From the NCBI GenBank assembly GCA_021298285.1, contig JAJTFN010000026.1, positions 14,354 through 49,361 on the forward strand: DNA of 35,008 nt. Direction: 5' to 3'. Positions 20,579 to 25,221 of this stretch are shown here, one piece after another. Made by a program: the position numbers and the translations under genes. How positions within the stretch are numbered: position 1 is the first letter of the stretch; every line of letters starts with the position of its first letter. Below the pieces are notes generated by a model. That model made no database searches. It was not told the origin of the DNA and saw nothing but the letters and a program-made list of their open reading frames with translations. Origin of the DNA: Verrucomicrobium sp. GTDB taxonomy: Bacteria; Verrucomicrobiota; Verrucomicrobiia; Limisphaerales; UBA9464.

Positions 20579-21841
20579 ATGAAAAACCTCATTCCCAGCG
20601 TGAGCGCCCTTTCCATCGGCGCTGCGAGCCTCGCGGTCACCACTGCCCTCCAAGCCGCCGATGGTGGGTCCAAGCCATGGACGGTGCGAGCTGGTGTCTC
20701 CGGATTCTACAACGACAACGTCTACACCCGCAGCGACCTGCCCAAGGTCGACAGCTTCGGTTTCGAGCTGACCCCGGGCTTCAGCCTCAACCTGCCGGTC
20801 AACGATGGCCAGACGGTGCTGGGCCTGCGCTACGACTACCTGTTGCGCTACTTCGAGAACCGCGAGAAGGCCGTCGACCACAACCACGTCGTCGACGCCA
20901 ACCTCAGCCACAGCTTCAACAGCCGCTTCAAGCTCGACGTCTTCGACAGCTTCGCCCAGGCCCAGGAGCCGCAGCAGCTGGGTCAGGGCGCCGGTGGCGC
21001 CGGCATCCTCTTCCGCGCGGAGGGCACGAACTTCCGCAACATCGCCGGCTTCGACTTCACGTCGCAGCTCGCCGAGAGCTGGAGCGCGGTCACCGGCTTC
21101 CGCAACAACCTCTTCCGCTTCGACAACGACCTGTTCGCCCAGTCGCTGGACCGTGTCGAGTACCTGCCTTCGGTCAACCTGCGCTACCAGCTGGCCCCGA
21201 CCTCCAGCGTCGGCCTCTTCTACCAGTACGGCATCACCGACTACGACGGACCGGGCGTCAACGTGGGCTTCGTTCGCGACGTCAACTCGCACTTCGTCGC
21301 GGCGACCGTCGACCATGATTTCGCCGCGAACCTCACCGGGTCGCTGCGTGGGGGTATCCAGTACAACGACTTCGTCGAGGTGTCCGGCATCCGCGGCCGC
21401 GACGGTGTCTCGCCCTACGTGGACGGCCAGTTGACCTACGGGTTCCTCCCGGGATCCTCGGTCACCCTCGGCGTTCGCCACCAGTTGACCGCGACCGACG
21501 TCGGCATCCTTGGCACCGTGGGCGGCGGCCTGTTCAACGACCCGATCCGCGGCAGCAGCGCCACCTCGGGCCGCATCAGCCTGTCGCACAGCTTCACCCC
21601 GAAGCTGGTGGGCTCGGTCAACGGTCTCTACCAGGCCGGCACCTTCATCGGCGGCGGTCCCAGCATCGATGGCCAGGGCGACGGTTACGCCTCGGCCGAT
21701 GTGACCCTGGCCTACCGGATCACCCAGAACATCTCGACCCGTCTGACCTACGCGCATGACCGCGTGGATTCCGACCTGGTGAACGACCTGCGTGAGTTCG
21801 CCCGCAACCGGGTGTTCTTGGGCGTCAACTTCACCTACTGA
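20579..21841 (+). CDS. Outer-membrane beta-barrel protein of a polysaccharide export cluster
   Basis: A 420-residue protein with a signal peptide (1-26, ending ALQA before ADGG). The rest consists of alternating amphipathic strands with aromatic girdles (VRAGVSGFYNDNVYT, LGLRYDYLLRYFEN, SVGLFYQYGITDYD) and ends in a terminal aromatic (VFLGVNFTY). This is typical of an outer-membrane barrel recognised by the Bam machinery, of the 'putative beta-barrel porin 2' type found next to exopolysaccharide genes. Strand repeats suggest around 16-18 strands by eye. It heads the cluster that includes the Wzz/BY-kinase and short Wza protein, so the likely role is the outer-membrane conduit for a polymer. 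The AAGGAG sequence upstream is about 25 bases from the ATG, too far for normal initiation. Confidence 0.85.
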   Translation: MKNLIPSVSALSIGAASLAVTTALQAADGGSKPWTVRAGVSGFYNDNVYTRSDLPKVDSFGFELTPGFSLNLPVNDGQTVLGLRYDYLLRYFENREKAVDHNHVVDANLSHSFNSRFKLDVFDSFAQAQEPQQLGQGAGGAGILFRAEGTNFRNIAGFDFTSQLAESWSAVTGFRNNLFRFDNDLFAQSLDRVEYLPSVNLRYQLAPTSSVGLFYQYGITDYDGPGVNVGFVRDVNSHFVAATVDHDFAANLTGSLRGGIQYNDFVEVSGIRGRDGVSPYVDGQLTYGFLPGSSVTLGVRHQLTATDVGILGTVGGGLFNDPIRGSSATSGRISLSHSFTPKLVGSVNGLYQAGTFIGGGPSIDGQGDGYASADVTLAYRITQNISTRLTYAHDRVDSDLVNDLREFARNRVFLGVNFTY

Positions 21842-21869
21842 GAGTTTCCAACCCTGGCAACCCTGTCGT

Positions 21870-21908
21870 AGGAGGCTGGAACATCCCTTCTGGCCTCCTC
21901 TTTTTTTT
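21870..21908 (+). terminator. Terminator or attenuator hairpin directly before the BY-kinase start
   Basis: AGGAGGC (21870-21876) pairs perfectly with GCCTCCT (21893-21899) across a 16-base loop, then C and eight T (21901-21908). The kinase ATG begins at 21912, 3 bases after the T run. It is a textbook intrinsic terminator in form, 28 bp after the barrel stop. Full termination would silence the downstream genes unless another promoter exists, so partial read-through is likely. Confidence 0.75.
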
Positions 21909-21911
21909 CAC

Positions 21912-24131
21912 ATGGAAGTTTCGAAGGCACCCCAGTCCACGGATTCCAAGCTCCATTTCCTGGACTACTGGCGGATCATCCGGATCCGAAAGGCGGTCAT
22001 CCTGGCGGTCTTCCTGCTGGTGGTGATCACCACGGCGATCATCACCCAGTTCCAGCCCGAGTCGTACTCGTCGCTGGCCCGGATGAAGGTGGAGAAGGAC
22101 ACGCCGCTGACCCAGTTGATGATGGGCAGCGGGCCGATGACCCCGGCCTTCGACCAGTACTTCCTGCAGACCGAGTTCCAGGTCATCCGCTCCCCCAAGA
22201 TCCTGAATGAGGTGATCAAGGACCTGAAACTGGCCCGCATCTACGCCGAGCGGGACAAGCAGCCAGGTGAGTTGCCCATCCAGGATGCCTACGAGACGCT
22301 CTCCCGCGAGGTCGACATCACCCAGTACCGGAACACGGCCATCATCGAGATCACGGCCTTCAACGAGGATCGGGAACTGGCGGCCCGCATCGCCAACAAG
22401 ATCGCCGAGATCTATGGCAACTACCGCAACAAGAACCGCTCCGGCCGCAGTGACCTCGCGTGGACGGCGCTGACCAACAAGCTTGCCCGGTACGACAAGG
22501 AGGTGTCGGAAGCCCGCGAGAAGATGGACACCCTCCGCATTTCCCTGAAGGTGCCCGAGGACATCGCCGACACCGGGCAAATCCAGGGTCTCTCGGCCCA
22601 GGAACTGGCCCGCAACACCGGCGTCATCCAAGATTACCAGACCCGCATCACCCGCAACAACCGCCTGCTTGAGCAATTGGCCCAACTGAAGGGCGATCAA
22701 CTGCTCAACGCGCTGGTGGTCGCCAATCCCACGGCCGAGCTCAACACGTTGATCGGCGCCAGGAATTTCGCCATGCGCCAGGCCTCGGGACTCAGCCCGG
22801 ATTTCGGGCCCGACCATCCGGAGGTCCTCAAGTGGTCCCTCCAGATCTCCAAGCTCGACCAGCAGCTCGACTCCACCGTCCAGGGCATCCTGAGCGGCAT
22901 GCGCTCCACCCTCGAGGCCGAGAAGGCGGCCATGGAGAACCAGAAGACCTTCCTTCAGGAGGCCATCGAGAAGAACTCCAAGGACACCGAGCGATTCCGC
23001 CCGTACATCGTCGCCCGCAACGACTTCGAGAGCGCCCGCCGCATCCGCGACGGCATCAAGATCCGCGTCGCCCAGGAGGACATCGACCGTGATCTCAGCA
23101 GCACCTCGGCCGTCGAGATCATCAACGAGGCCCTCCCCGGAACCAATCCGGTGCGGCCCAAGAAGGCGGTCAACATCACCATCGGCGTGGTCTTCGGCCT
23201 GATCCTCGGCATCGGCCTGGCGTTCTTCATCGAGTACCTCGACACGTCGGTGAAGACCATCGACGACGTCGAGCAGGCGCTGCAGGCACCGGTGCTCGGC
23301 GTCATCCCGCAGAACGTGGGGGCCCTGATGTCCGAGGGCGCCGACAGCCCCCATGCGGAGGCCTACCGAGAGCTGCGCACCAACGTGCTCTTCTCGCGCA
23401 AGGATCCCAACTGGCGCACCATGACCGTCGTGTCCGGTGGCGCCGGCGAAGGCAAATCCACCACGATCTTCAACCTCGCCACGGTCTTCGCCCAGAACGG
23501 CAGCCGGGTGCTCATCGTCGATTCCGACCTCCGCCGCCCGAGCCTCCACAAGATCCTCAACGTGGCCAACAACGTCGGGCTCACGAACTACCTGCTCAAG
23601 CAGAACCGCCTCGAGGAGGTCATCCAGACCACGCCGGTGCCGTCCCTCGACTTCCTGCCGTCGGGCCGACTCCCGAGCAGTTCCATCGGCATCCTCAACT
23701 CGACGGCCATGAAGGAGTTCGTCGCGGAAGCCAAGAGCCGCTACGACTTCGTGTTCTTCGACTCGCCGCCGATCATGGGCGTGAGCGACGCGTCGGTCCT
23801 GGCCAGCGAGGTGGACATGGCTGTGTTGGTCGTGCAGTACCGCAAGTACCCGCAGCAGATGACCCTCCGGGCCAAGCAGATGGTCGAGAAGGTCGGCGGG
23901 CACCTCCTCGGCGTGGTGTTGAACAACATCAACATCAGCCAGGACAGCTACTACTACTACTACAGCGGTTACTACTACGACTACTACTCCAAGAGCGAGG
24001 ACAGCAAGCCCGAGGGCGAGCGCAAGCTCTCGAAGCGCAAGCGTTCCGAGCCCAAGACCGGAGAGGTGGCCGCGACGGGCATCGAGGTGAAGGCCCCGGA
24101 AATCAAGCCCGGCAAGGAGACCAAGTATTGA
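21912..24131 (+). CDS. Wzz-domain polysaccharide co-polymerase fused to BY-kinase (Wzc-like)
   Basis: A 739-residue inner-membrane tyrosine autokinase controlling chain length and export of a polysaccharide. TM1 is about 28-46 and TM2 about 421-441. Between them lies a long periplasmic domain with coiled coils. RPKK sits just before TM2, as in Wzz proteins. The cytosolic kinase has Walker A GGAGEGKST (K515), Walker A' VLIVDSDLRRP (D537, D539) and Walker B FVFFDSPP (D617). The tail has ten tyrosines in DSYYYYYSGYYYDYYS (678-693), the autophosphorylation cluster, then a charged lysine-rich end. ATG 21912 has no Shine-Dalgarno; the preceding bases are a T tract. The next in-frame Met is well inside the first domain, so this start is preferred. 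Confidence 0.93.
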   Translation: MEVSKAPQSTDSKLHFLDYWRIIRIRKAVILAVFLLVVITTAIITQFQPESYSSLARMKVEKDTPLTQLMMGSGPMTPAFDQYFLQTEFQVIRSPKILNEVIKDLKLARIYAERDKQPGELPIQDAYETLSREVDITQYRNTAIIEITAFNEDRELAARIANKIAEIYGNYRNKNRSGRSDLAWTALTNKLARYDKEVSEAREKMDTLRISLKVPEDIADTGQIQGLSAQELARNTGVIQDYQTRITRNNRLLEQLAQLKGDQLLNALVVANPTAELNTLIGARNFAMRQASGLSPDFGPDHPEVLKWSLQISKLDQQLDSTVQGILSGMRSTLEAEKAAMENQKTFLQEAIEKNSKDTERFRPYIVARNDFESARRIRDGIKIRVAQEDIDRDLSSTSAVEIINEALPGTNPVRPKKAVNITIGVVFGLILGIGLAFFIEYLDTSVKTIDDVEQALQAPVLGVIPQNVGALMSEGADSPHAEAYRELRTNVLFSRKDPNWRTMTVVSGGAGEGKSTTIFNLATVFAQNGSRVLIVDSDLRRPSLHKILNVANNVGLTNYLLKQNRLEEVIQTTPVPSLDFLPSGRLPSSSIGILNSTAMKEFVAEAKSRYDFVFFDSPPIMGVSDASVLASEVDMAVLVVQYRKYPQQMTLRAKQMVEKVGGHLLGVVLNNINISQDSYYYYYSGYYYDYYSKSEDSKPEGERKLSKRKRSEPKTGEVAATGIEVKAPEIKPGKETKY

Positions 24132-24135
24132 GCCG

Positions 24136-24149
24136 CGATCCCGGGATCG
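24136..24149. other. 14 bp perfect palindrome between kinase and export lipoprotein genes
   Basis: CGATCCCGGGATCG lies in the 42 bp gap, 4 bp after the kinase stop. It could be a regulator site or an mRNA hairpin. A second partial CCGGGA half-site follows within 12 bp. Function unknown. Confidence 0.4.
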
Positions 24150-24173
24150 ATAGATTCCGGGAAGCTTTCCATC

Positions 24174-24833
24174 ATGATGCGTCGATTCTTCCAACAGGCC
24201 GTGGCTCCGTGGGTGGTGTTCTTGACGGTGTTCTGGGCGGGTTGCCAGACCGGCTTCGAGACCGCTCCGACCGCCACCTCGGCGTCGGGGACTGCCTCGG
24301 GGGCCTCGGCGGCTTCCTCCGGAACCACCGCGGGCACCAATGAGGTGTTCAGCATCGACCGCATCGCCGTCGGCGACATCATCCGCGTGATGTACGAGGC
24401 GTCGGTCCCGATCGCCCCGTCCGAGATCCAGCTGCCGGAGACCGGGCTCGTCACCATCCACATGGGCGAGCAGGTGCAGGTGGCCGGGCGAATGGCGGCC
24501 GACGTTTCGAAGGAGATCCGGGATCTCTTCACCGTCAAGAAGCAGATGTACAAGCGCCTGTCGGTCAACGTGCTGGTGCTGGGCCGTACGATCTCCGTGG
24601 GTGGCGAGGTCCGGGCGACGGGGTCGTTTCCCTTCGAGGGCGGCATGACCGTTCTCAAGGCGGTCAACCGGGCCGGCGGTTTCACCGAGTACGCCGACCG
24701 GAAAAAGGTGCGCATCACCCGGGTCAACGGCCAGCAGATCACCGTCGACTGCAAGGCCGCGCTGAAGAAGCCCGAACTGGACCTGCCTCTCTACCCCGGC
24801 GACCGCGTCGACGTGATGCGCAGCATCCTCTGA
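24174..24833 (+). CDS. Short Wza-type polysaccharide export (OPX) lipoprotein
   Basis: A 219-residue protein with a lipoprotein signal (FWAGC, acceptor C24), then a Ser/Thr/Ala/Gly-rich linker (about 30-52). The Poly_export domain starts near 58 (IAVGDIIRVMYEASV, PETGLVTIHMGEQVQVAG). One SLBB domain follows (SVGGEVRATGSFPFEGGMTVLKAVNRAGGFTEYADRKKVRITR), ending YPGDRVDVMRSIL. E. coli Wza is about 380 residues, with more periplasmic rings and a C-terminal helix that crosses the outer membrane. Both are absent here, so this protein cannot form the outer pore alone and presumably works with the beta-barrel at 20579. Start may be ATG 24174 or 24177. Confidence 0.9.
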   Translation: MMRRFFQQAVAPWVVFLTVFWAGCQTGFETAPTATSASGTASGASAASSGTTAGTNEVFSIDRIAVGDIIRVMYEASVPIAPSEIQLPETGLVTIHMGEQVQVAGRMAADVSKEIRDLFTVKKQMYKRLSVNVLVLGRTISVGGEVRATGSFPFEGGMTVLKAVNRAGGFTEYADRKKVRITRVNGQQITVDCKAALKKPELDLPLYPGDRVDVMRSIL

Positions 24834-24843
24834 GGGTCTCCGG

Positions 24844-25221
24844 ATGTTCGAGTTCCGTCTGCCCGGCGGCCCGGCCCATGCCTGGAACGGGGAGGTGCTG
24901 AGCATCGGTCGCGATCCCTCGAACGACTGGGTGCTTGTTTCCGCTGGCGTGTGGTCGAGGCATGCGGAGGTCCGATGCGATCCGACCGGTCGCCTGACCC
25001 TGCGTCCAGTGGGGGAGGCGGTCGTCTCGGTCAATGGGCTCCCGGTGCGGGAGGCCATCCTGCGTTGGGGTGATGCGGTGGCCTTCGGCGCCACCGTCGT
25101 CCGGTTCCATCTGGCCCCTCCGGTCCAGCGCGGATTGCGGGGTTGGGAGTGGTGCCTTTGGATGATTCTCCTGCTCTGCCTCCTCGGCCAGACGTGGCTG
25201 GTCCTGGCGTTGCGCCGCTGA
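24844..25221 (+). CDS. FHA-domain protein with C-terminal membrane anchor
   Basis: A 125-residue protein. Residues 1-92 form an FHA domain: LSIGRDPSNDWVL (19-31, with G22 and R23), WSRHAEV (37-43, with S38 and H40) and SVNG (62-65, with N64), all the residues that normally contact phosphothreonine. After a short linker comes one hydrophobic helix (about 102-122, WEWCLWMILLLCLLGQTWLVLAL) and a basic end (RR). It is therefore tail-anchored in the inner membrane with the FHA domain in the cytosol. It begins 10 bp after the export lipoprotein stop, and GAGGG about 9 bases before the ATG is an acceptable Shine-Dalgarno, so it belongs to the same transcript. It likely links phosphorylation signals to polysaccharide export. 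Confidence 0.85.
   Translation: MFEFRLPGGPAHAWNGEVLSIGRDPSNDWVLVSAGVWSRHAEVRCDPTGRLTLRPVGEAVVSVNGLPVREAILRWGDAVAFGATVVRFHLAPPVQRGLRGWEWCLWMILLLCLLGQTWLVLALRR

Follow-up and report, generated by a model that had tools for sequence, protein, structure and literature searches.

Does a block of four genes from a draft genome of the Limisphaerales, which encodes a beta-barrel, a BY-kinase, a short OPX protein and an FHA protein and holds no glycosyltransferase gene, specify a self-contained machine for exporting a sugar polymer across the cell envelope? The block lies in Verrucomicrobium sp. (GTDB lineage Verrucomicrobiota; Verrucomicrobiia; Limisphaerales; UBA9464), whose assembly GCA_021298285.1 comprises 3.37 Mb and is 88.9% complete. 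We analyzed positions 14354-49361 of the forward strand of contig JAJTFN010000026.1 (labeled C231), a stretch of 35,008 nt referred to here as the window. An ORF and domain scan found all four genes on the + strand at 20579-25221, in the order barrel, kinase, OPX, FHA and at the places that an earlier sequence-only reading had given (Table 1). A PIG-L deacetylase gene is the upstream neighbor of the block, while genes for a 506-aa protein (with a weak DUF455 match below cut-off) and for RecJ follow downstream on the opposite strand. No glycosyltransferase domain was detected among the 19 window proteins scanned, in agreement with the absence that had been claimed for the block.

Table 1 Features of the export locus in window coordinates, with the evidence for each assignment.
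Feature	Position	Strand	Evidence
Outer-membrane beta-barrel, putative polymer pore	20579..21841	+	420 aa; Pfam BBP2_2 E 4.9e-14; model with 18 strands
Intrinsic-terminator-like hairpin and T-run	hairpin 21870-21899, T-run 21901-21908	+	scan, conservation, covariation
BY-kinase/polysaccharide co-polymerase fusion	21912..24131	+	739 aa; Wzz, GNVR, AAA_31; TIGR01007 E 1e-51
Short OPX, probable lipoprotein	24174..24833	+	219 aa; Poly_export (D1, below Pfam cut-off) and one SLBB (D2)
FHA-fold protein with C-terminal TM helix 105-123	24844..25221	+	125 aa; FHA E 3.8e-10

The proposal that the OPX protein lacks the C-terminal outer-membrane helix, and that a separate barrel is encoded in the same block, was borne out for both proteins. 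A Poly_export match at residues 63-135, which scored below the Pfam cut-off, is followed in the OPX protein by a single SLBB domain (140-214), and the chain stops five residues later, too soon to accommodate a Wza_C helix; the end likewise fell at most seven residues past the profile match in 79 of 79 relatives (from the best 80 of 355 kinase loci). Wza and PslD were its solved sequence relatives. The N-terminus has a hydrophobic start and a cysteine at position 24, a loose lipobox pattern was present in 57 of the 79 relatives from the same best 80 of 355 loci, and the protein is probably a lipoprotein. The barrel gene lies two genes upstream, and its product yielded an AlphaFold2 model (mean pLDDT 81) with a strand number that was counted by hand from the listed elements after merging two broken strands. 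AlgE entries were among the top matches in a structure search of this model (Z 18.8, rmsd 5.3 over 316 residues), tied with OccK porins.

The kinase gene likely starts at the ATG at 21912 rather than at the GTG at 21792 given in the ORF list, which overlaps the barrel gene. Its product is a BY-kinase of the Wzc type, with two transmembrane segments (29-47 and 422-440) enclosing a periplasmic part of ~375 residues, about Wzc-sized by alignment, and a tyrosine-rich tail behind the co-polymerase region. We take the stretches GGAGEGKST (509), VDSDLRRP (536), FFDSPP (615), EAYRELR (483) and YYYYY (680) to be Walker A, A', B, EX2RX2R and the C-terminal tyrosine cluster, respectively. TIGR01007 matched above its cut-off, and the nearest solved sequence relatives include CapA/CapB, Wzc, Etk and VpsO. 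An aromatic residue, mostly as part of a -KY ending, closes the chain in 72 of 80 relatives (Tyr in 61 and Phe in 11; best 80 of 355).

These parts form a core of the EpsX/EpsY type, the composite OPX/beta-barrel translocon already known from Myxococcus xanthus and described in PMC9601211 and PMC9603273, so that the comparison with Myxococcus made in the sequence-only reading was apt. As in M. xanthus, a short two-domain OPX protein without an outer-membrane helix is found beside an 18-stranded, AlgE-like barrel and together with a co-polymerase. In contrast to M. xanthus, the co-polymerase here is fused into a full BY-kinase of roughly Wzc size, an FHA protein is added, sugar genes are not found nearby, a conserved hairpin separates barrel and kinase, and the gene order is fixed across a taxonomic order. 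The size of the kinase speaks against reading the locus as such a module, as short OPX proteins of M. xanthus are thought to require an elongated co-polymerase (PMC9601211), compared to a periplasmic part of only ~375 residues here. The pair of OPX protein and BY-kinase co-polymerase also resembles Wza-Wzc of Escherichia coli in size and domain layout, but the OPX protein here is without the extra ring domain and helix, and the barrel is separate. Judging from the published work, OPX/barrel sets without other sugar genes nearby are probably not new. The PVC superphylum is named once in PMC9601211, in a figure legend, and Verrucomicrobiota may be among the 28 phyla with OPX proteins; words starting with 'FHA' or 'Verrucomicrobi' did not occur in the main texts of PMC9601211 and PMC9603273, and literature searches returned no study of a composite OPX/barrel exporter in Verrucomicrobiota. 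The novel aspects are the constant pairing with an FHA protein whose phosphate site is altered, the fixed position of the hairpin and the constancy of the locus across the order.

We assessed this constancy at increasing phylogenetic distance. Relatives of the OPX protein were present in 28 of 30 genomes, including its own, and all 27 relative loci that were fetched (17 from the genus and 10 from other families) showed the same gene order and strand as far as their contigs extend, which places the arrangement beyond chance; the barrel was absent from five loci, all at contig ends. For the ten loci from other families, no flanking ORF was shared with more than 4 of the other 18 loci in the comparison and module genes were shared with 9-17, such that the flanking genes differ between families while the four-gene order stays. 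In the best 80 of 355 loci found by kinase search, which carry titles including Limisphaera, Pedosphaera and Limisphaerales and are in some cases the same contigs as G loci, all four genes occurred in order and on one strand in 71; eight of the other nine were cut by contig ends and one (L086) had no FHA gene. Co-occurrence of barrel and short OPX protein in relatives, on which the sequence-only reading had made its proposal depend, is kept, and the four-gene order that it suggested seeking in other Verrucomicrobiota recurs across the Limisphaerales.

Across 116 genomes of the order, orthologues of the FHA protein (E at most 2.2e-25) were found in 103, orthologues of the OPX protein (E at most 9.4e-37) in 99 and both in 95, and the FHA gene was directly behind the OPX gene in each of these 95, with 2-193 bases between matched stretches. 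The FHA protein, described earlier as an addition to the set, is indeed present but is a near-invariant partner rather than a mere addition. It occurred without the OPX protein in eight genomes, in two of them at a contig end. The reverse was seen in four genomes, comprising two with the OPX gene at a contig end, one with a divergent FHA protein at the expected position (L166, E 7e-10) and one loss; genome G113, whose contig is that of L086, has kept barrel, kinase and OPX genes and has no FHA gene. Among 194 genomes of the phylum besides its own, FHA matches reached E 1e-15 or lower in seven; these were all weaker (best 5.8e-19) and belonged to open frames of 439-587 residues. A Rosetta-stone reading of these longer proteins was not supported, with an OPX and a kinase gene in only one of the seven fetched loci (L150), ~7 kb off. 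The four genes form a unit found throughout the order, with no genes for sugar synthesis next to it.

Several further occurrences were recorded. The genome itself holds a second set of barrel, OPX and BY-kinase genes in another gene order (contig C139, L065, 3282-7612); no FHA match was found beside it, and the genome contains a single FHA match at E at most 0.001. A complete four-gene module was present on a contig labeled Candidatus Omnitrophota (L127), through transfer or a mislabeled bin, and several MAGs titled Akkermansia muciniphila carry the module under names that are probably wrong. Four of the Akkermansia-titled loci (L072, L076, L078 and L080) were among the closest relatives of the window within the best 80 of 355.

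The question of which polymer would pass through such a machine was addressed at the genome level. Synthesis-type genes elsewhere in the genome comprised one PGT (C166), and three Wzy_C matches above cut-off were found on C53, C190 and C197; among the seven ORFs scanned on the contig of the PGT, itself included, there was no further glycosyltransferase. Three exosortase genes were also present. One of these (L053 1578-2654, corresponding to C231:1578-2654) lies ~32 kb upstream of the barrel gene of the module, flanked by genes for an outer-membrane barrel and an MlaE permease. Wzy and exosortase genes, which the sequence-only reading had suggested seeking, thus occur in the genome and together with the PGT make polymer synthesis possible, but none of them was linked to the module.

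Instead of serving a free-standing capsule or EPS pathway, the module could export the polymer of an exosortase system of the XrtA/PEP-CTERM type, whose export genes encode the same kinds of parts with weak sequence similarity (barrel TIGR03016, OPX TIGR03027, kinase TIGR03018 and TIGR03007) and with which the three exosortase genes of the genome, one of them on the same contig, would agree. We regard this as unlikely, since all four models scored below their NCBIfam cut-offs (46.5 vs. 90.85, 46.6 vs. 180, 130.6 vs. 230.65 and 87.4 vs. 278.85 bits), and membership in that system was rejected. Moreover, kinase and co-polymerase are one protein here, unlike in XrtA/PEP-CTERM loci, and no exosortase was detected among the 19 scanned window proteins or on C231 outside C231:1848-2582.

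The FHA protein has the beta-sandwich of its family. Its model (pLDDT 91) showed an FHA sandwich followed by a helix at 98-124, and its structural matches include EmbR (Z 16.6) and the FHA domain of FhaA (Z 16.1), with GarA also at ~16. The nearest solved structure by sequence profile was that same domain of mycobacterial FhaA (TB39.8) in entry 3oun, which was solved with the intracellular domain of Rv3910, presumably MviN. The two share the fold, and differ in that the protein here has 125 residues with a C-terminal membrane helix and a changed phosphate site. Within the FhaA motif GVSRRH is a serine which, from work on Rad53 and FhaA, we take to contact the phosphate. Trp37 of the window protein aligns with it, and the STNG loop of FhaA is replaced as well. 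The aligned position held Trp in 86, Ala in 5 and Ser in none of 91 module copies, a set that includes the window's own and counts a few contigs under two ids. Because this serine is replaced, the protein is probably not an ordinary phosphothreonine reader, and that default role was downgraded. A normal reader tying a Ser/Thr kinase to polysaccharide export would fit the clear fold and the retention of the loop arginine R23 (86/91) and of H40 (89/91), but seems improbable given the tryptophan and the altered loop.

We found the FHA protein without the module in families f7 and f24, where, in all six genomes sampled, its gene followed a same-strand LptF/LptG gene, with 31-56 bases between matched stretches. 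The best kinase match in f7 and f24 genomes was at E 6.7e-10 and no OPX match reached E 1e-20; the search for a barrel covered the fetched loci. An AccA gene followed in five of five fetched loci (L155-L159, from G024, G083, G042, G093 and G122), and neither LptF/LptG nor AccA neighbors were present in 118 other loci searched at E up to 1e-5. The five fetched copies formed one clade (95/95) within the module-linked FHA proteins, with few columns to judge by, and the association looks like one evolutionary event. It does no more than hint at a broader function in the export of envelope glycans. Among the papers listed by literature searches, none linked FHA proteins to BY-kinase/OPX export or to Lpt.

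A further element, overlooked in the sequence-only reading, is a strong terminator-like hairpin with a T-run at 21870-21908. It consists of a GC-rich stem of 12 pairs followed directly by eight Ts, as in an intrinsic terminator, and ends three bases before the kinase ATG. All 22 relatives examined have the hairpin at this position, although the stem of L063 is divergent, and a looser rule recovered both hairpin and T-run in a wider set of 82 loci with a single exception (81 of 82; exception L129), a set that partly overlaps the 22 relatives and repeats some genomes (for example, L140/L164 and L141/L165). Under a strict rule, 74 of the 82 gaps, amounting to 5,932 bases, held a hairpin, compared to 73 hairpins in the ~1.98 million strand-bases that make up the rest of these loci, a contrast that overstates its rarity relative to other intergenic DNA because the compared strand-bases are mostly coding. 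Covariation supported the pairing, as 92.9% of cells paired in 55 chosen sequences, compared to 41-64% when the partner was slid; changes on both sides occurred in 7 of 12 pairs, which 4 of 500 shuffles reached, and the covariation score was reached by none of 500.

A model of the hairpin had its best window match at its own site (47.7 bits) and, at E up to 0.1, found a match in 98 of the order's 116 genomes; 28 of the first 30 rows were on the contig of the module or beside its kinase and two were not. In the remaining 18 genomes, ten of which have the module, this search, run with stricter filters, found nothing, and the hairpin in this form is not universal. No Rfam family matched at E up to 1. 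Twelve loci that were inspected comprised two barrel-kinase junctions (L204 and L206) and ten similar hairpins near other genes, one of them behind a gene recognized by eye as groEL-like. Because of these, we rejected the idea of a hairpin type unique to this locus, and the element seems to represent the usual terminator of this lineage, retained in an uncommon position. A palindrome for a transcription factor was judged less likely, given that the spacing of the arms is variable and that they covary in the manner of RNA pairs. The idea of a stem that is leaky because it is rich in wobble pairs was considered and is not maintained: an inner wobble was more common at junctions (56/65) than in other hairpins with T-runs from the same loci (41/70; Fisher p 0.0005), but wobble numbers did not clearly differ (p 0.16) and the junction hairpins were not weaker (median -18.6 vs. 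-15.6 kcal/mol).

Since the start codon directly follows the hairpin in most loci, the kinase mRNA must read through the hairpin or begin within it. The quartet is therefore probably not simply one transcript, as a conserved terminator-like hairpin parts the barrel gene from the genes for kinase, OPX and FHA proteins. By its form the hairpin would end transcription, and we infer a role in attenuation. Action on translation instead, as a structured leader or a U-rich loading site for ribosomes, is suggested by the T-run, whose end lay at most 13 bases from the start codon, where a ribosome-binding site would lie, in 77 of the 81 loci listed; we consider this rather unlikely, as the similar hairpins with T-runs near unrelated genes of the order, such as the groEL-like gene, look like ordinary terminators.

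Overall, we consider it likely that the locus is a stand-alone trans-envelope module for sugar-polymer export, with an FHA accessory and a terminator before the kinase. The BY-kinase/co-polymerase would sit in the inner membrane, the short OPX protein would form a ring beneath the outer membrane and the 18-stranded barrel would serve as the outer-membrane pore, as in EpsX/EpsY, with the genes for synthesis of the presumed polymer sited elsewhere in the genome. The C-terminal helix may anchor the FHA protein in the inner membrane, making it a near-constant cytoplasmic accessory of the kinase complex, its putative partner, to which its binding is probably independent of ordinary phosphothreonine. 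The putative intrinsic terminator just before the kinase start would uncouple expression of the barrel from that of kinase, OPX and FHA proteins, which would be made by read-through of the hairpin. A bolder version, which we hold only tentatively and think somewhat doubtful, is that this sugar-gene-free export module is near-core throughout the order, that a phospho-blind, membrane-anchored FHA protein is a fixed subunit that can also serve a second exporter of envelope glycans, LptFG, and that a conserved attenuator in the gap between barrel and kinase determines how much pore is made relative to kinase, ring and FHA protein.

Composite exporters of the OPX/barrel type were discovered only recently, and a near-obligate extra subunit together with a conserved hairpin at a fixed place would offer direct experimental access to the assembly of these machines and the balance of their parts. 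As a defined family, the FHA protein has a partner that can be tested, whether the kinase, the OPX machine or Lpt.
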